Assembly: GCA_016219375.1 (NCBI GenBank)
Contig: JACRNC010000021.1
Coordinates: 124,001-188,000 of the forward strand
Direction: 5' to 3'
DNA length: 64,000 nt
Origin: Burkholderiales bacterium
GTDB lineage: Bacteria > Pseudomonadota > Gammaproteobacteria > Burkholderiales > Burkholderiaceae_C
The notes under the pieces are model-generated. The model was not told the DNA's origin and made no database searches. It saw nothing but the letters and a program-made list of their open reading frames with translations. The first letter of the stretch is position 1. The number at the start of each line of letters is the position of its first letter. The translations under genes were made by a program, and so were the position numbers. Shown here piece after piece: positions 35,868 to 42,141 of the stretch.

Positions 35868-35969
35868 ATCCAGGCGAGTCTATCGGCGGGCCGCGGCCCG
35901 CAAGCTCCCTGCTGCCCGCCGCCCCACTGCGGGGCCCGGATTGGCGTGGAATTTGCTGCCCGCTGGTGC

Positions 35970-36605
35970 ATGCCTCACTCCCCTGCCTCGCTGCGCCTGG
36001 TCATCGTGGCGCCGGAATCGCTGGCGCCCGACCCGTCGGATGCCGAGGCGCGGCAGGAGGCCGAGCGCTCGCGCAGCCTGCGCATCGGGCTGCTGGAGGC
36101 GGGCTACAACATCGTGGCCGTGCTGCCGGCGGATGCCTTCCTGCCCGACCGCATCGCGCAGATCCAGCCCGACATGATCGTGGTCGATGCCGAGAGCCAG
36201 GCGCGCGACATCCTGGAGCACGTGGTCTTCGCCACGCGCGACGACCGCCGGCCCATCGTCATGTTCACCGACGACGAGGACACCAGCCACGTGGGGGACG
36301 CCATCGCCGCCGGCGTGTCGGCCTATGTGGTGGCCGGCCTGGCCAGCGAGCGCATCAAGCCGGTGCTGGAGGTGGCCATGCTGCGCTTTCGCCATGAGGA
36401 AAACCTGCGCCGCGAGCTGGCCGACGCCCGCACCCAGCTGGAGGAGCGCAAGCTCATCGACCGCGCCAAAGGCCTGCTGATGGCCAGGCAGGGCTGCAGC
36501 GAGCAGGAGGCCTATGCCCGGCTGCGCAAGACGGCGATGGACCGCGGCCTGAAGCTGGCCGAGGTGGCGCAGCGGCTGATCGACGTGGCGGACATGCTGG
36601 GCTGA
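35970..36605 (+). CDS. nasT: NasT-type response regulator with ANTAR RNA-binding domain
   Basis: Transcription antiterminator for nitrate assimilation (211 aa). The N-terminal half (about residues 8-125) is a receiver-like fold with the acidic pocket strand PDMIVVDAESQARDI. The C-terminal ANTAR domain (about 145-205) has the conserved pattern ERKLIDRAKGLLMARQGCSE and AYARLRKTAMDRGLKLAEVA. ANTAR proteins bind paired hairpins in nascent RNA and stop terminator formation. Exactly such a pair follows 156 bases downstream in front of nrtA. The ATG at 35970 is preferred over an upstream GTG. A dedicated NasS nitrate sensor gene is not adjacent. Confidence 0.92.
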   Translation: MPHSPASLRLVIVAPESLAPDPSDAEARQEAERSRSLRIGLLEAGYNIVAVLPADAFLPDRIAQIQPDMIVVDAESQARDILEHVVFATRDDRRPIVMFTDDEDTSHVGDAIAAGVSAYVVAGLASERIKPVLEVAMLRFRHEENLRRELADARTQLEERKLIDRAKGLLMARQGCSEQEAYARLRKTAMDRGLKLAEVAQRLIDVADMLG

Positions 36606-36648: not shown

Positions 36649-36733
36649 TGCACAGCCGGCCGCTCGTGCGTGCGCGGGCACGGCCACCGCACATCGATCC
36701 CCCGCTTGAGCCGACATGGTGCAGCCGCGCCTG

Positions 36734-36749
36734 GCACGGCTCGTGCAAC
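36734..36749 (+). promoter_or_regulatory. sigma-54 promoter of the nrtABC operon
   Basis: TGGCACGGCTCGTGCA has the invariant GG (-24) and GC (-12) with the right 10-base spacing (consensus TGGCAC-N5-TTGCW, one mismatch). Transcription would begin near 36760, immediately before the first ANTAR hairpin. Confidence 0.75.
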
Positions 36750-36760
36750 GCATATGGCGA

Positions 36761-36816
36761 GGTCAACGGCGACCTCCCCTGATTCCCTCTTCGTGTGCGG
36801 CTCAACGGCGGGCCGC
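36761..36816 (+). ncRNA. ANTAR two-hairpin antitermination element in the nrt leader
   Basis: Hairpin P1 (36761-36778) pairs GAGGTC with GACCTC around the loop AACGGC. Hairpin P2 (36797-36816) pairs GCGGCTC with GGGCCGC, with one G-U pair, around the same loop AACGGC. Both loops are six bases with A at position 1 and G at position 4, the defining features of ANTAR targets. The linker is 18 bases. The neighbouring NasT-type gene is the expected binding partner. Confidence 0.82.
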
Positions 36817-36828
36817 CCACCCTGGACG

Positions 36829-36905
36829 ACGGCGTCCCCACGTCTGACGGCTGCATGCCCTGGCATGCGGATGCGTCGGAGCGTGAGGACGCCGTTTTCT
36901 TTTTG
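36829..36905 (+). terminator. leader intrinsic terminator (attenuator) before nrtA
   Basis: ACGGCGTCC (36829-36837) pairs exactly with GGACGCCGT (36887-36895), followed by TTTCTTTTT. Between the arms sits a second perfect hairpin, GCATGCC/GGCATGC (36853-36868). It starts 12 bases after ANTAR hairpin P2 and ends 70 bases before the nrtA start, as expected for an attenuator relieved by NasT. Confidence 0.82.
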
Positions 36906-36974
36906 GCCCTCGGCCTTCAACCGCCCCGCCCCACTCAACCGCCCCGACCCATGAAAACCCCACAGGACACCAAG

Positions 36975-38198
36975 ATGAGCCGTCGTACCTTGATGCAGGT
37001 GGCTGCCGCCGCCAGCGCGTCGTCGCTGCTGCCCGGGCTGCAGGCCGGCGCCTGGGCCCAGGGCTCGGACAAGCCCGAGAAGGAGGAAGTGCGCATCGGC
37101 TTCATCCCGCTGACGGACTGCGCCTCGGTGGTGATGGCCTCGGTGCTGGGCTTCGACAAGAAGTACGGCGTGAAGATCATTCCGTCCAAGGAGGCGTCCT
37201 GGGCCGGCGTGCGCGACAAGCTGGTCAACGGCGAGCTCGACATGGCCCATGTGCTGTGGGGCCTGGTCTACGGCGTGCACATGGGCGCCGGCGGGCCGAA
37301 GAAGGACATGGCCGTGCTGATGAACCTGAACCACAACGGCCAGGCCATCTCGCTGTCGAAGAAGCTGGCCGACGCCGGCGCGGTGGACGGCACCAGCCTG
37401 GCCAAGACCATGTCGGCCAACAAGCGCGAATACACCTTCGCGCAGACCTTCCCCACCGGCACGCATGCCATGTGGCTGTACTACTGGCTGGCCACCTACG
37501 GCATCAACCCGATGAAGGATGCCAAGGTCATCACCGTGCCGCCGCCGCAGATGGTGGCCAACATGCGCGTGGGCAACATGGACGGCTTCTGCGTGGGCGA
37601 GCCCTGGAACCACCGGGCCATTGCCGACGGCATCGGCATCACCGCGGCCACCACGCAGGACATCTGGCGCGACCACCCGGAAAAGGCGCTGGGCACCACG
37701 GCCGACTTCGTCAGGAAGTACCCCAACACCTGCCGCGCCGTGATCGCCGCGGTGCTGGAGGCCAGCCGCTGGATCGACGCCGGGCTGCAGAACAAGCTGA
37801 AGATGGCCGAGACCATCGCCGGCAAGGCCTATGTGAACACCGGCGTAGACGTGATCAACCAGCGCATCCTGGGCCGCTACCAGAACGGCCTGGGCAAGAC
37901 CTGGGACGACCCCAACCACATGAAGTTCTTCAACGACGGCGCGGTGAACTTCCCGTACCTGACCGACGGCATGTGGTTCCTGACCCAGCACAAGCGCTGG
38001 GGGCTGATCAAGGAGCACCCGGACTACCTGGGCGTGGCCCGGCAGATCAACCAGATCGAGCTCTACAAGCAGGGCGCGGCGCTGGCCAAGGTCAGCGTGC
38101 CCAAGGAGCCGATGCGCAGCAGCAAGCTGATCGACGGCACGGTGTGGGACGGCAAGAACCCCAAGGCCTATGCCGACGGCTTCAAGATCCGCGCCTGA
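36975..38198 (+). CDS. nrtA: nitrate ABC transporter substrate-binding protein (NrtA/CmpA family)
   Basis: Periplasmic or lipid-anchored binding protein of the nitrate/nitrite/cyanate/bicarbonate importer family (407 aa). It opens with a twin-arginine signal, MSRRTLMQVAAAASASSLLP, cut near AWAQ, so it is probably Tat-exported and not a cytoplasmic NasS sensor. The mature part starts VRIGFIPLTDCASVVMASVL, the family hallmark, with TGTHAMWLYYWLATYGINP later. I chose 36975, with AGGA 7 bases upstream; an ATG at 36951 lacks a ribosome binding site. Nitrate as substrate is inferred from the NasT/ANTAR leader. Confidence 0.91.
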   Translation: MSRRTLMQVAAAASASSLLPGLQAGAWAQGSDKPEKEEVRIGFIPLTDCASVVMASVLGFDKKYGVKIIPSKEASWAGVRDKLVNGELDMAHVLWGLVYGVHMGAGGPKKDMAVLMNLNHNGQAISLSKKLADAGAVDGTSLAKTMSANKREYTFAQTFPTGTHAMWLYYWLATYGINPMKDAKVITVPPPQMVANMRVGNMDGFCVGEPWNHRAIADGIGITAATTQDIWRDHPEKALGTTADFVRKYPNTCRAVIAAVLEASRWIDAGLQNKLKMAETIAGKAYVNTGVDVINQRILGRYQNGLGKTWDDPNHMKFFNDGAVNFPYLTDGMWFLTQHKRWGLIKEHPDYLGVARQINQIELYKQGAALAKVSVPKEPMRSSKLIDGTVWDGKNPKAYADGFKIRA

Positions 38199-38234
38199 CG
38201 GCGCCCGCATGACGACTTCTTCAGGAGAGCAATC

Positions 38235-39188
38235 ATGGTGAGTGCCGTCTTCCACAGCCCGCGGGCGCTGCCCGTGGCCCCTGCATCGCCAGCCGCGTCC
38301 ACCGCGGCCTCGCACGTGCCGGCCAGCGCGCCGACATCAGCGGAGCCCACTGCTGCAGGTGGGGCTGCCACGGGTTCGGCAGAGCCCGGCCCGGCCCACC
38401 CCAGCCGCCCCCCGCGCGACTGGAGCGGCCTGGCCGTCAAGCTGCTTGCACCCACCGCAGGCTTGGCGCTGCTGATCGGCATCTGGGCCCTGCTGACGAT
38501 GAAGGAGGGCACGGGCTTCCCCACGCCGCTGCAGACCTGGCAGGCCGCCGTGGCGCTCTTCAGCGACCCGTTCTACAGCAACGGGCCGAATGACCAGGGC
38601 ATCGGCTGGAACGTGCTGTTCTCGCTGCAGCGCGTGGCGATGGGCTTCGGGCTGGCCGCGCTCGTGGGCATTCCGCTGGGCTTTGCGCTCGGGCGCTTCG
38701 CCTTCTTCAACCAGATGGTCTCGCCCATCGTCAGCCTGCTGCGGCCGGTGTCGCCGCTGGCCTGGCTGCCCATTGGCCTCCTGGTGTTCAAGTCAGCCAA
38801 CCCGGCAGCCATCTGGACGATCTTCATCTGCTCGATCTGGCCGATGATCATCAACACCGCCGTGGGCGTGCAGCGCGTGCCGCAGGACTACCTGAACGTG
38901 GCGCGGGTGCTCAACCTGAGCGAGTGGAAGGTGATCACGCGCATCCTCTTCCCCGCGGTGCTGCCCTACATGCTGACCGGCGTGCGCCTGTCGGTGGGCA
39001 CCGCCTGGCTGGTGATCGTGGCCGCCGAGATGCTCACCGGTGGCGTGGGCATCGGCTTCTGGGTGTGGGACGAGTGGAACAACCTCAACGTCGCCCACAT
39101 CATCATCGCGATTTTCGTCATCGGCATCGTCGGCCTGCTGCTGGAGCAGGCGCTGGTGGCGGTGGCGCGTCGCTTCAGCTTCGAGTGA
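38235..39188 (+). CDS. nrtB: nitrate ABC transporter permease
   Basis: Inner-membrane permease (317 aa), SsuC/TauC/NrtB branch. The first 70 residues are Ala/Pro/Ser-rich and probably cytoplasmic, longer than usual. About six helices follow, starting LLAPTAGLALLIGIWALLTM. The EAA loop contacting the ATPase is visible in SEWKVITRILFPAVLPYMLT. AGGAGAG lies just before the ATG. It stands 36 bases after nrtA and 28 bases before the ATPase gene. Confidence 0.93.
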   Translation: MVSAVFHSPRALPVAPASPAASTAASHVPASAPTSAEPTAAGGAATGSAEPGPAHPSRPPRDWSGLAVKLLAPTAGLALLIGIWALLTMKEGTGFPTPLQTWQAAVALFSDPFYSNGPNDQGIGWNVLFSLQRVAMGFGLAALVGIPLGFALGRFAFFNQMVSPIVSLLRPVSPLAWLPIGLLVFKSANPAAIWTIFICSIWPMIINTAVGVQRVPQDYLNVARVLNLSEWKVITRILFPAVLPYMLTGVRLSVGTAWLVIVAAEMLTGGVGIGFWVWDEWNNLNVAHIIIAIFVIGIVGLLLEQALVAVARRFSFE

Positions 39189-39216
39189 ACCGACTCACAC
39201 AGAAAGGGCCCGCGCC

Positions 39217-40020
39217 ATGACCGGCTTCATCGACATCCGCGACGCGGAGATGGTGTTCCACACCAAGCAGGGACGCTTCCATGCCCTGCGCGACATCAAC
39301 CTGCGGATCGAGCGCGGCCAGTTCGTCGCCCTGATCGGGCACTCGGGCTGCGGCAAGTCGACGCTGCTCAACCTGATTGCCGGGCTGCTCAAGGCCACGG
39401 GCGGCGCGCTGATCTGCGACGGGCGCGAGATCGCCGCCCCGGGCCCCGAGCGCGCGGTGGTCTTCCAGAACCACTCGCTGCTGCCGTGGCTGACCTGCTT
39501 CGACAACGTCTACCTGGCGGTGGAGCGGGTGTTTGCGGCCAGGGAGGGCAAGGCGCAGCTCAAGGCGCGCACCACTGCGGCGCTGGAGCTGGTGGGCATG
39601 GCGCACGCGGCCACCAAGCGCCCGCATGAGATCTCCGGCGGCATGAAGCAGCGCGTGGGCATCGCCCGGGCGCTGGCGATGGAGCCCAAGGTGCTGCTGA
39701 TGGACGAGCCCTTCGGTGCGCTGGATGCGCTCACCCGGGCGCACCTGCAGGACGAGCTTCTCAAGATCGTGGCCCGCACGCAGAGCACCGTGGTCATGGT
39801 GACCCACGACGTGGACGAGGCGGTGCTGCTGTCCGACCGCATCGTGATGATGACCAACGGCCCGGCCGCGACCATCGGCGAGGTGCTGGACGTGCCGCTG
39901 GCCCGGCCGCGCGACCGCGTGGCGCTGGCGGAAGACCCGGCCTACATGCATTGCCGCAAGGCGGTGCTGGACTTCCTCTACACCCGCCACGGCGCGCCCC
40001 GGGAAAAGCTGGCCGCCTGA
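39217..40020 (+). CDS. nrtC: nitrate ABC transporter ATP-binding protein
   Basis: ATPase of the nitrate importer (267 aa). Walker A GHSGCGKST, Q-loop VVFQNHSLLPWLTCF, signature ISGGMKQRVGIARALA, Walker B VLLMDEPFGALDAL and the H-loop VTHDVDEAV are all intact. It lacks the C-terminal NrtA-like regulatory domain of cyanobacterial NrtC, so it corresponds to NrtD in that system. It is the last gene of the operon: no nitrite or nitrate reductase genes follow. The 3' end borders a possible second sigma-54 promoter. Confidence 0.93.
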   Translation: MTGFIDIRDAEMVFHTKQGRFHALRDINLRIERGQFVALIGHSGCGKSTLLNLIAGLLKATGGALICDGREIAAPGPERAVVFQNHSLLPWLTCFDNVYLAVERVFAAREGKAQLKARTTAALELVGMAHAATKRPHEISGGMKQRVGIARALAMEPKVLLMDEPFGALDALTRAHLQDELLKIVARTQSTVVMVTHDVDEAVLLSDRIVMMTNGPAATIGEVLDVPLARPRDRVALAEDPAYMHCRKAVLDFLYTRHGAPREKLAA

Positions 40021-40036
40021 ACGCCGGCCCGTGGAT

Positions 40037-40051
40037 GCACCGCTGAGGAGC
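40037..40051 (+). promoter_or_regulatory. NtrC-like palindrome before the candidate sRNA promoter
   Basis: GCACCGCTGAGGAGC fits GCACC-N5-GGTGC with one mismatch. It is centred about 43 bases before the predicted start site, closer than usual for NtrC enhancers, so its role is uncertain. Confidence 0.4.
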
Positions 40052-40060
40052 ACATACCGC

Positions 40061-40076
40061 TGGCACAGCGCTTGCA
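40061..40076 (+). promoter_or_regulatory. sigma-54 promoter downstream of nrtC
   Basis: TGGCACAGCGCTTGCA is a near-perfect sigma-54 promoter (consensus TGGCACG-N4-TTGCW), 41 bases after the nrtC stop. Predicted transcription starts near 40087. No protein gene lies downstream on this strand. Confidence 0.78.
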
Positions 40077-40086
40077 ATTCGTCACC

Positions 40087-40198
40087 TGACTGTTGCGGCA
40101 GTCAAGCGGATGTCTCCTGTCTCCTCAGCGAGGTCACGCTTTGCGGGCGAACCTCGATTCGGCCTCCCGGTCTGCCGGCCGGGGGGCCGCTTCTTTTT
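40087..40198 (+). ncRNA. candidate sigma-54-dependent small RNA (about 112 nt)
   Basis: No recognisable coding sequence lies here. The predicted transcript starts with a perfect hairpin TGACTG/CAGTCA (loop TTGCGG, 40087-40104). An unpaired CU-rich stretch follows with two tandem TGTCTCC copies (40111-40124), which contain the Shine-Dalgarno-complementary TCTCCT twice. Then come a second hairpin, CGAGGT/ACCTCG (40129-40156), and an intrinsic terminator (40160-40198). The whole unit lies between nrtC and the convergent lgt gene. It could also be the leader of a lost downstream gene. Existence is inferred from signals only. Confidence 0.55.
40160..40198 (+). terminator. intrinsic terminator of the candidate small RNA
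   Basis: CGGCCTCCC (40160-40168) pairs with GGGGGGCCG (40181-40189), nine pairs with one G-U, followed by C and TTCTTTTT. The T-tract exists only on the plus strand, so the terminator serves plus-strand transcripts (nrtABC read-through or the candidate sRNA), not lgt. Confidence 0.8.
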
Positions 40199-40219
40199 CC
40201 CGGGCCGCCGCGGTGGTGA

Positions 40220-41020
40220 TCAGCCGGCCCGGTTGCGGCCGGCCCAGGCCCACATCGCCACGCCGGCCAGCACCATCGGGATGCACAGCCACTGGCCCAT
40301 GCTGAGGTTGAGCGCCAGCAGGCCCAGGAAGTCATCCGGCTCGCGGAAGTACTCCGCCGCAAAGCGCAGCACGCCGTAGCCGATCAGGAAGGCGGCCGAC
40401 ACCCGGCCCAGCGGGCGCGGCCGGCGGCCGAACCACCACAGCACGGCGAACAGCAGCACGCCCTCCAGCGCGAACTGGTAGAGCTGCGACGGGTGCCGCG
40501 GCAGCGGGCTGCCCGACTGCGGGAACACCATCGCCCACGGCAGCGACGGATCGGCAAATCGGCCCCAGAGCTCGCCGTTGATGAAGTTGCCCAGCCGCCC
40601 CATCGCCAGGCCGATGGGCACGCAGGGCGCCACCAGGTCGGACACGTCGAAGAAGCTGCGGCCGCGCTGGCGGCCGAACAGCGCCAGCGCCAGCAGCACG
40701 CCGATCAGCCCGCCGTGGAAGGACATGCCGCCCTGCCAGACGGCAAAGGCCTCCAGCGGATGGGCCAGGTAGTAGGCCGGCTTGTAGAAGAGCACATAGC
40801 CCAGCCGCCCGCCCAGCACCACGCCCAGCACGGCGTAGAAGAGCAGGTCCTCGACGTCCTTGCCCTGCCAGCCGCGGCCGGCGAAGGGCTCGCGTGCCGC
40901 GCGCCGGCGGGCCAGCATCAGGAACAGGAGGAAGGCTGCCAGGTAGCTCAGGCCGTACCAGTGCACGGCCAGCGGGCCCAGGCGGAAGGCGATGGGGTCG
41001 AACTGCGGATGGACCAGCAT
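40220..41020 (-). CDS. lgt: phosphatidylglycerol-prolipoprotein diacylglyceryl transferase
   Basis: Inner-membrane enzyme that adds diacylglycerol to the lipobox cysteine of prolipoproteins, the first step of lipoprotein maturation. It has 266 aa and about seven helices. The Lgt signature [13 protein letters not shown] with its essential arginine and asparagine residues is present, as are [19 protein letters not shown] near the start and [16 protein letters not shown]. It is convergent with nrtABC, and its start is 68 bases from the 3' end of the LysR gene. Confidence 0.96.
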
Positions 41021-41088
41021 GGGCAGGGCAGCGGGGCTGAAAGAGACGGAAGAGAGACGGACGAGACGGAACGGGAAGGCGGCGAACC

Positions 41089-42141
41089 TTAACAGCGGGT
41101 GCCGCGGCGGGCCGAGCGCTCGCGACGGTTCGTCCCGACAGCGGCGCCCAGCTCGCCCAGCCTCTGCTGCACGAAGCCGACGAAGCGGGCCACGCAGGCC
41201 GGCGCATCAGGCCGCCACAGCAGGCTGGTCTCGCACTCCGGCGCGCCGGCGGCCAGCGCCGCCGGCAGCGCGCGGTAGACCACGCCCGGCCGCTGCAGCT
41301 GGGTCACCGTCTCCGGCACCCAGGCCAGGCCCAGGCCGGCGGAGACCAGGTTGACGATGGTCTGCATCTGGATGGCCTCCTGGGCGATGCGCGGTGAGGC
41401 GCCCTGGGCGTGATACCAGCTGAGCACCGCGTCGAACAGCGAGGGCGCGATGTCGCGGGGGAAGAGCACCAGCGGCTCGCGCAGCAAAGCTGACCGCGAC
41501 AGCCGCGGCGCGCGGGCCAGCGCGTGGTCCTGCGGCAGCGCCAGCACCATGCGCTCGCGCCCAACGGTGCCCCCCGGCCAGCCGGCCGGCGCCATGCCCG
41601 GCGCATGCAGCACGAAGCCGGCGTCCAGCTCGGCCTGCTGGAGCGCGCGCAGCTGCACGTCGGTGGTCGCCTCGCGCAGCTCCACCGTCACGCCCGCATG
41701 CGCCGCACGGAAGGCGAGCAGCCAGTGCGGCAGCGCACCGAAGCCCACGGTAGAGACAAAGCCCAGCCGCAGCCGGCCGCTGTCGCCCCGGCCGATGGCG
41801 CGGGCCTGCTCGATCAGCGCCTCGCCCTGGCGGAGCCAGTCGCGCACCGGCTCCAGCAGCGCCGCGCCGGCCTCGGTCAGCGCCACGCTGCGCCGCGTGC
41901 GCGCCAGCAGCGGCACGCCGACATGCCGCTCCAGCTGCTGGATGGCCAGCGTGAGCGCCGGCTGGGTCATGTGCAGCCGCTCGGCCGCGCGGCCGAAGTG
42001 CAGCGCCTCGGCCACGGCCAGGAACTGCCGCCACAGGCGGACCTCGTGCCCGGTCAGACGGGGCGGTGCGGCATGCGGGCTCGGCGTGTGGACGGGGTGC
42101 TGATCGGCGTGCTGGGCTGCGGGCGTGGGGGCGGACGGCAT
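41089..42141 (-). CDS. LysR-family transcriptional regulator
   Basis: DNA-binding activator or repressor (350 aa). An N-terminal extension of about 30 residues precedes the winged helix-turn-helix (about 33-92: [24 protein letters not shown]-type recognition). A two-lobe effector domain follows, with [20 protein letters not shown]. It diverges from ilvD over 150 bases that hold a perfect T-N11-A LysR box, so it probably controls itself and ilvD. The effector is not readable from sequence; an intermediate of branched-chain amino acid synthesis would fit. Confidence 0.9.

Follow-up and report, generated by a model that had tools for sequence, protein, structure and literature searches.

A putative sigma-54-dependent small RNA family first seen between nrtC and lgt in Aquabacterium, with members in other genera

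The window, a stretch of 64,000 nt from a Burkholderiales genome (GenBank assembly GCA_016219375.1, contig JACRNC010000021.1) that we placed with Aquabacterium in a genus group of 42 genomes, displays the gene order tsaD-nasT-nrtABC-RNA-lgt. On the forward strand, a NasT-like regulator with an ANTAR domain (35946..36605; PF03861) precedes the genes of a nitrate-type ABC transporter (36951..40020; PF13379, PF00528 and PF00005), which were named nrtA, nrtB and nrtC from family and gene order. The stop codon of nrtC (40018..40020; ABC_tran, PF00005) forms the upstream edge of the gap studied here, and lgt (40220..41020, reverse strand, stop codon at 40220-40222; PF01790) is the convergent neighbour. 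The leader of nrtA (36732-36910) has a sigma-54-type promoter of its own, TGGCACGGCTCGTGCA. It also contains two hairpins, both with the hexaloop AACGGC (A1, G4), as well as a long terminator hairpin; with an ANTAR-domain protein encoded upstream, it looks like a classical ANTAR antitermination leader.

Within the nrtC-lgt gap, a small RNA of about 112 nt is predicted on the forward strand (40087..40198), with its 5' end placed from a promoter and its 3' end from a terminator. The promoter, TGGCACAGCGCTTGCA (-24/-12 type, TGGCAC-N5-TTGCA; forward strand, 40061..40076), had been picked out in the original prediction as a near-consensus sigma-54 site, and it is indeed the only exact match to TGGCAC-N5-TTGCW in 64 kb, where 0.12 would be expected and 10 of 100 shuffled sequences held at least one; it stands in the same place in relatives and was conserved in 24 of 24 loci. 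No sigma-70-type promoter was seen within 39000-41200. A hairpin starting at the predicted +1 was likewise recovered, TGACTGTTGCGGCAGTCA (40087..40104), with seven pairs, one of them G-U, and an inner pair probability of 0.95 in the window copy; helix 1 covaries in relatives. It is followed by a C/U-rich linker (40105..40128) containing TGTCTCC twice and leading into a conserved core, CTCCTCAGC (40121-40129), which we propose as the seed. The core reads YTCCTCAGC in 35 of the 36 members compared, ten of which had been selected by a pattern already containing it, the sole exception being L047 with CTTCTCAGC; the GG and GC of the promoter are invariant in the same 36 members, which were picked partly by promoter.

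The C/U stretch had been described as single-stranded, and in the 11 relatives folded it is indeed mostly unpaired. Two of them (L024, L037) have its first bases paired to the 5' end, and several folds from other genera use its final two to four bases to close hairpin 2. The window copy, however, is divergent, and its core is partly paired in the ensemble. A similar division applies to the second hairpin claimed for the window (40129..40156; CGAGGT at 40129-40134 with ACCTCG at 40151-40156), which is well supported in relatives but has a probability of 0.32 in the window, where it does not belong to the minimum-energy fold and costs 1.3 kcal/mol to force. The intrinsic terminator (40160..40198; hairpin 40160-40189, T-tract 40191-40198) was also part of the original prediction. 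Within 39000-41200 no other terminator-like site occurs on either strand, though with 0.7 expected a single site is near chance; the terminator helix, helix 3, covaries in relatives. Folded as a whole, the RNA is more stable than its shuffles (z = -2.83, one in 200 as good). No ATG or GTG frame of at least eight codons lies wholly inside the window RNA; one ATG frame of 89 codons (40110-40379) starts within it and runs antisense into lgt; it mostly overlies that gene and is taken as chance.

When the window element was searched by BLAST against 41 genus genomes, the only matches other than itself were to the promoter, in two genomes and in front of nrtA; this outcome resembled a refutation and was overturned by comparing the lgt side. 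Lgt was matched in 39 genomes and 30 Lgt loci were read; 25 of these, the window included, revealed a sigma-54-type promoter followed by the RNA and its terminator. The five loci without the full element comprise two in which no nrtC was found (L019, L039), two in which nrtC adjoins lgt (L032, L042) and one with a terminator remnant (L020). Identity to NrtC is as low as about 51% for the ABC ATPase encoded upstream at L021 and L036. The core is TTCCTCAGC in 23 of the 24 Aquabacterium relatives, and that of the window matches the members from other genera. The lgt frame overlaps the 3' end of the RNA by 23-40 nt, roughly the terminator, in 24 of the 25 elements and does not overlap it in the window, and an internal ATG or GTG frame of at least eight codons occurs in a single element of the 25; the part of the RNA clear of lgt thus takes in hairpin 1, the linker and almost the whole of hairpin 2, with no small frame conserved in it.

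The 24 relatives, with the window left out, were aligned (alignment A3) to a consensus of three helices in which 98.4% of the cells pair. Both sides have changed in 15 of the 36 pairs, against a shuffle mean of 6.5 with none of 500 shuffles as high; related rows can beat shuffles without structure, and the slid controls, which preserve relatedness, gave 1 to 6 double-sided changes. Covariation was counted fully on A3 alone, since the alignments A4 and A5 misplace hairpin 2. A covariance model built from A3, R1, found the window element as its best match in the source genome (40094-40196, 32.4 bits, the next reaching 14.7), with E = 1.8e-6 within the window; the E-values of this model and of R2, described below, are rough. 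R1 matched 33 of the 41 genus genomes, with one copy each and always within about 80 nt of lgt. Among the 30 genomes of good quality 26 had a match and four had none, and the match in G031 is, by reading, the terminator remnant L020.

Association of promoter and RNA was tested on loci found by the RNA sequence pattern TTCCTCAGCGGGGGTC alone, in named genomes, which gave 93 stretches. R1 matched 25 of them (18/80 and 7/13), and seven further rows were opposite-strand terminators. With L120 omitted, its 5' end being cut off, a sigma-54 promoter lies 24-25 nt before the start of the R1 model in all 24 loci (17/17 and 7/7; many of them from genomes already in the genus set, and thus not 24 extra species), while the upstream control windows of the same test gave 0 of 330 (0/232 and 0/98). 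Carriers of the RNA among the named genomes include A. fontiphilum and A. parvum.

Outside Aquabacterium, a promoter-plus-core pattern occurred in 20 of 399 genomes of the family, against three for the reversed control. Fifteen of these matches were accepted, five in Aquabacterium (including the window) and ten in other genera; L157, L166, L167, L168 and L172 were dropped on reading. R1 gave ten matches of around 30 bits outside the genus, two of which are members, namely L147, at the same place as L173, and L154, which has a promoter with CGGCAC and is the eleventh member outside the genus. Seven of the ten were dropped because promoter or core is missing, and the R1 match L150 is RF02278-like by eye. 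The eleven members fall into six genus groups (g12, g59, g60, g78, g91 and g94). They are shorter, with 88-96 nt, and reveal hairpin 1, a C/U linker ending in CTCCTCAGCAGGG, a short hairpin 2 and the terminator, folds having been computed for six of them; R1 scores on the ten given to it ranged from 15.7 to 35.4 bits. A second model, R2, was built from five members of other genera and covers hairpin 1 and the terminator, not hairpin 2. It scores the window at 26.8 bits, its sole window match at E <= 1; this score alone is not decisive, as R2 also scores RNAs of the RF02278 type (L007 20.0 bits, L008 19.9, L150 27.7). At the level of the order, R2 yielded three matches in 399 genomes (E <= 1e-4, strict filters), all of them terminators without core or promoter, and this negative is weak because the same search misses the window copy too.

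Neighbours of these members vary, upstream and downstream, while promoter and RNA persist. Five of the eleven follow NrtC (L154, L163, L169, L170, L171). Four have a divergent TsaD match 24-52 nt away (L173-L176) and L165 has TsaD at 593 nt; no match to NasT or NrtABC was found in the flanks, about 1.5 kb on each side, of these five tsaD-side loci. At L164 the promoter lies within the 3' end of a GGDEF/EAL gene. Downstream and on the opposite strand we found Lgt (L169, L170), an Fer2 ferredoxin (L165, L174, L175), Hsp70 (L154, L163, L176) and an Fer4 protein (L171); for L164 and L173 the downstream side was judged only by eye. The occurrence of a tsaD-RNA order beside the window order, with nasT and nrtABC in between, suggests that the RNA is independent of the nitrate uptake genes.

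These neighbourhoods bear on two explanations that would do without a free-standing RNA gene. The main alternative named in the original prediction was a leader whose downstream gene has been lost; the gene might also have been displaced, and an antiterminated nitrate-assimilation leader would be an instance. The RNA does lie beside nrtABC, the leader of nrtA in the window likewise combines a sigma-54-type promoter with two hairpins and a terminator, and the sRNA promoter is 93% like the nrtA promoter of G034 and G039 over 28-29 nt; L171 moreover holds about 0.8 kb of frames without a Pfam match, so that a small gene is possible there. We nevertheless regard this explanation as very unlikely: lgt is on the opposite strand in all 25 genus loci read, the nameable downstream genes of the other genera (Lgt, Fer2, Hsp70, Fer4 protein) are opposite as well, and the conserved portion is the linker core, hairpin 1 of the window having no A1-G4 hexaloop. 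ANTAR antitermination leaders consist of two hairpins with A1/G4 hexaloops before a co-directional gene; as such a leader the window RNA was rejected, its loop being TTGCGG or TGCG and lgt lying on the other strand. The RNA might instead be a product of the 3' UTR of the nrtABC mRNA, as GlnZ is of glnA, with the sigma-54-like site incidental (GlnZ is the Enterobacteriaceae sRNA considered below). In the genus, as in five loci from other genera, it does lie behind nrtC in the same orientation, yet the promoter keeps its fixed distance in 24 of 24 loci, and the five tsaD-side loci carry RNA and promoter with no NrtABC match in the stretch, which makes this origin highly improbable.

A free-standing sigma-54-dependent sRNA, as originally proposed, is thus supported by the comparison, given the fixed spacing of promoter and RNA in 24 of 24 loci, the covariation and the opposite strand of all named downstream genes. 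The search across relatives that had been suggested as a check found promoter, structure and terminator kept, without a conserved small frame. As related RNAs occur in most genus genomes checked and in several other genera, we take the RNA family to be real; judged by sequence comparison, it is conserved and apparently undescribed, although sigma-54-dependent sRNAs as such are already known. Its plan would be a sigma-54 promoter, hairpin 1, a linker with YUCCUCAGC, hairpin 2 and a terminator, and the window fits this plan, hairpin 2 weakly.

The earlier statement that no homologue is known has held up so far: no family of Rfam 15 reaches its cut-off in the 14 loci scanned, six Aquabacterium loci yielding nothing that reaches a gathering score and seven loci of other genera nothing at E <= 1, and in the portions of the open-access literature covered, neither this RNA nor any sigma-54-dependent sRNA in Burkholderiales was found described. 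Weak matches in the window (sX13, ctRNA, ncS54 and others) all fall under the gathering scores, and a weak match to narK RNA (RF03032) at L037 1366-1406 covers mainly promoter letters. The consensus of narK RNA itself begins with GGCaCAgcucUUGCU and reads like a sigma-54 promoter.

The closest known systems are S17 of Bordetella, BdhR1 and RF02278, the "Betaproteobacteria toxic sRNA", a family characterised by toxicity in E. coli upon overexpression. Like S17 and RF02278, the window RNA is a betaproteobacterial sRNA in which a hairpin and a terminator accompany a single-stranded C/U-rich stretch (TGTCTCCTC in the window). The S17 study reports pairing with ribosome-binding sites enhanced by Hfq, repression of BP2158 by the C/U-rich site through pairing in the 5' UTR, established with compensatory mutations, and synthesis from a sigma-A promoter with RNase E processing (PMC11722255). 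The window RNA departs from S17 in its sigma-54 promoter, its 5' hairpin and its YUCCUCAGC core. RF02278 members are reported to be present fourfold in Herbaspirillum seropedicae (PMC7011215).

Could the RNA then be a divergent member of RF02278 and S17 with a swapped promoter? The start UGUCUCCUC and the GAUUC before the terminator, which mark RF02278, are present letter for letter in the window, TGTCTCCTC and GATTC being identical to the RF02278 consensus; the order of C/U start, hairpin and terminator is shared, and R2 gives 20.0 bits to L007, the RF02278 RNA of the same genome, and 19.9 to L008. The GAUUC is not characteristic of the Aquabacterium relatives. We consider membership unlikely, as the RF02278 model reaches 19.9 bits in the window (40118-40195) against a gathering score of 50, matches neither seven members of other genera at E <= 1 nor the L037 element at E <= 5, and has a separate, clear member in the same genome at 65.1 bits (L007). 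On the best reading of these comparisons, the window RNA would work like S17 without being an RF02278 member, its manner of action probably being the same base pairing at ribosome-binding sites. Since two further loci, L008 and L009, score 28 bits and carry TGTCTCCTC, several sRNAs with C/U seeds appear to exist in this one genome.

Other nitrogen- or sigma-54-related sRNAs are more distant. NrsZ of Pseudomonas aeruginosa is a nitrogen-response sRNA dependent on NtrB/C and RpoN; compared by description and Rfam scans, it differs in its size of about 226 nt, its position between ntrC and PA5126 and its activation of rhlA (PMC8395346). CrcZ of Pseudomonas is also RpoN-dependent, but is described there as a 407-nt Hfq decoy with A-rich motifs under CbrB, and the same source presents both as sigma-54-dependent sRNAs important for nutrient control in Pseudomonas (PMC8395346). 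In Enterobacteriaceae, an sRNA tied to nitrogen limitation is reported to be released from the 3' UTR of the glutamine synthetase mRNA (PMC9731577), in contrast to the window RNA with its own promoter. NcS25 of Burkholderia cenocepacia, also a Burkholderiales sRNA, represses a porin via the Shine-Dalgarno region and touches nitrogen metabolism; it differs from the window RNA in that, according to its report, an upstream sigma-54 motif is absent and nitrogen depletion brings no change (PMC10117139).

As for regulation of the RNA, the NtrC of the source genome surpasses its NCBIfam cut-off (637 bits), and two RpoN genes (L232, L233) surpass theirs; four further proteins match the NtrC family below the cut-off. 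NtrC sites follow the consensus TGCACC-N5-GGTGCA, and upstream of the window promoter the palindrome TGCACCGCTGAGGAGCA (forward strand, 40036..40052) agrees with it at 11 of 12 positions, a level equalled in none of 50 shuffles. It is absent at this level from the other 24 Aquabacterium loci, and its centre lies about 43 nt before the RNA start, close for an enhancer; for both reasons the site is doubtful. A scan of 35 loci for the consensus, L154 being left out, revealed sites of 11/12 in the window, upstream, and in L169 and L173, downstream of the terminator, as well as sites of 10/12 downstream of the terminator in L171 and L164 and inside lgt in L044. The downstream palindromes lie at +123 (L169), +139 (L173), +143 (L171) and +158 (L164) from the promoter. 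In 29 of the 35 loci, NtrC-like sites were no better than in shuffles, and control by NtrC is therefore plausible for some loci and conjectural for most. A real sigma-54 sRNA might hence answer to an activator other than NtrC and to a signal other than nitrogen limitation, a possibility that we hold to be the less probable one but still appreciable: conservation of the NtrC-like sites is lacking, some RNA loci have no nrt genes close by, and the four additional NtrC-family proteins could include other activators. NtrC is favoured by the nrtABC context in Aquabacterium and by the strong matches to its consensus in the window, L169 and L173.

Taking this together, we consider it likely that 40061-40198 is an independent gene for a trans-acting sRNA transcribed with sigma-54, probably controlled by NtrC, whose linker pairs with Shine-Dalgarno regions. 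RNA polymerase with sigma-54 would transcribe it, most likely under NtrC when nitrogen is short, into an RNA that runs from a 5' hairpin through a largely exposed C/U linker, which contains YUCCUCAGC as its core, to hairpin 2 and a terminator, the U tail of which would suit Hfq, if Hfq takes part. The core is complementary to GCUGAGGA, a Shine-Dalgarno-like sequence, and the linker may pair with Shine-Dalgarno regions of this type and block translation of a set of mRNAs, the outcome being a repressing arm for nitrogen limitation. For environmental betaproteobacteria, such a family, conserved and with promoter and core fixed, would mean that the nitrogen response has an RNA arm as well. The proposal is directly testable, because the predictions for promoter, seed and 5' end are exact to the base.

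Candidate targets were sought with the pattern GCTGAGGAR-N4..9-ATG, which gave 45 sites in eight chosen genomes against six for the reversed pattern, a control blind to Shine-Dalgarno enrichment. Thirty of the 45 were read, and only two proteins, KdsA and an RND-type protein named by eye, were each common to two genomes, so that the candidates are few and hardly shared between species; seven of the 30 candidates were annotated, and duplexes with the window linker were computed for ten, picked by hand. Three candidates are related to nitrogen: in G024, UrtE and UAAP2 both exceed the NCBIfam cut-off, and in the source genome a LivM-like permease falls short of it; the genes for all three are weak candidates and serve as leads. 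A wider proposal, in which a sigma-54 sRNA family untied to the nitrate operon acts as a nitrogen-starvation brake that silences many mRNAs, among them those of urtE, UAAP2 and the LivM-like gene, and is activated in some genera from NtrC sites downstream of the terminator, appears to us speculative and rather doubtful.

Two further observations concern the nitrate genes of the window. The sequence CGCTGAGGAG (40041-40050, nrtC 3' region) is the exact complement of CTCCTCAGCG of the core (40121-40130), which would allow the sRNA to pair with the nrtABC mRNA; a complementary stretch of this kind within 120 nt is at most 6 long at the other 24 loci. The sRNA promoter (40060-40088) shares its 93% identity over 28-29 nt with the nrtA promoter of G034 and G039 at loci L016 and L017, near 1501-1528, and by eye it is closer to these than to the nrtA promoter of the window itself; an exchange of promoters via recombination is possible.
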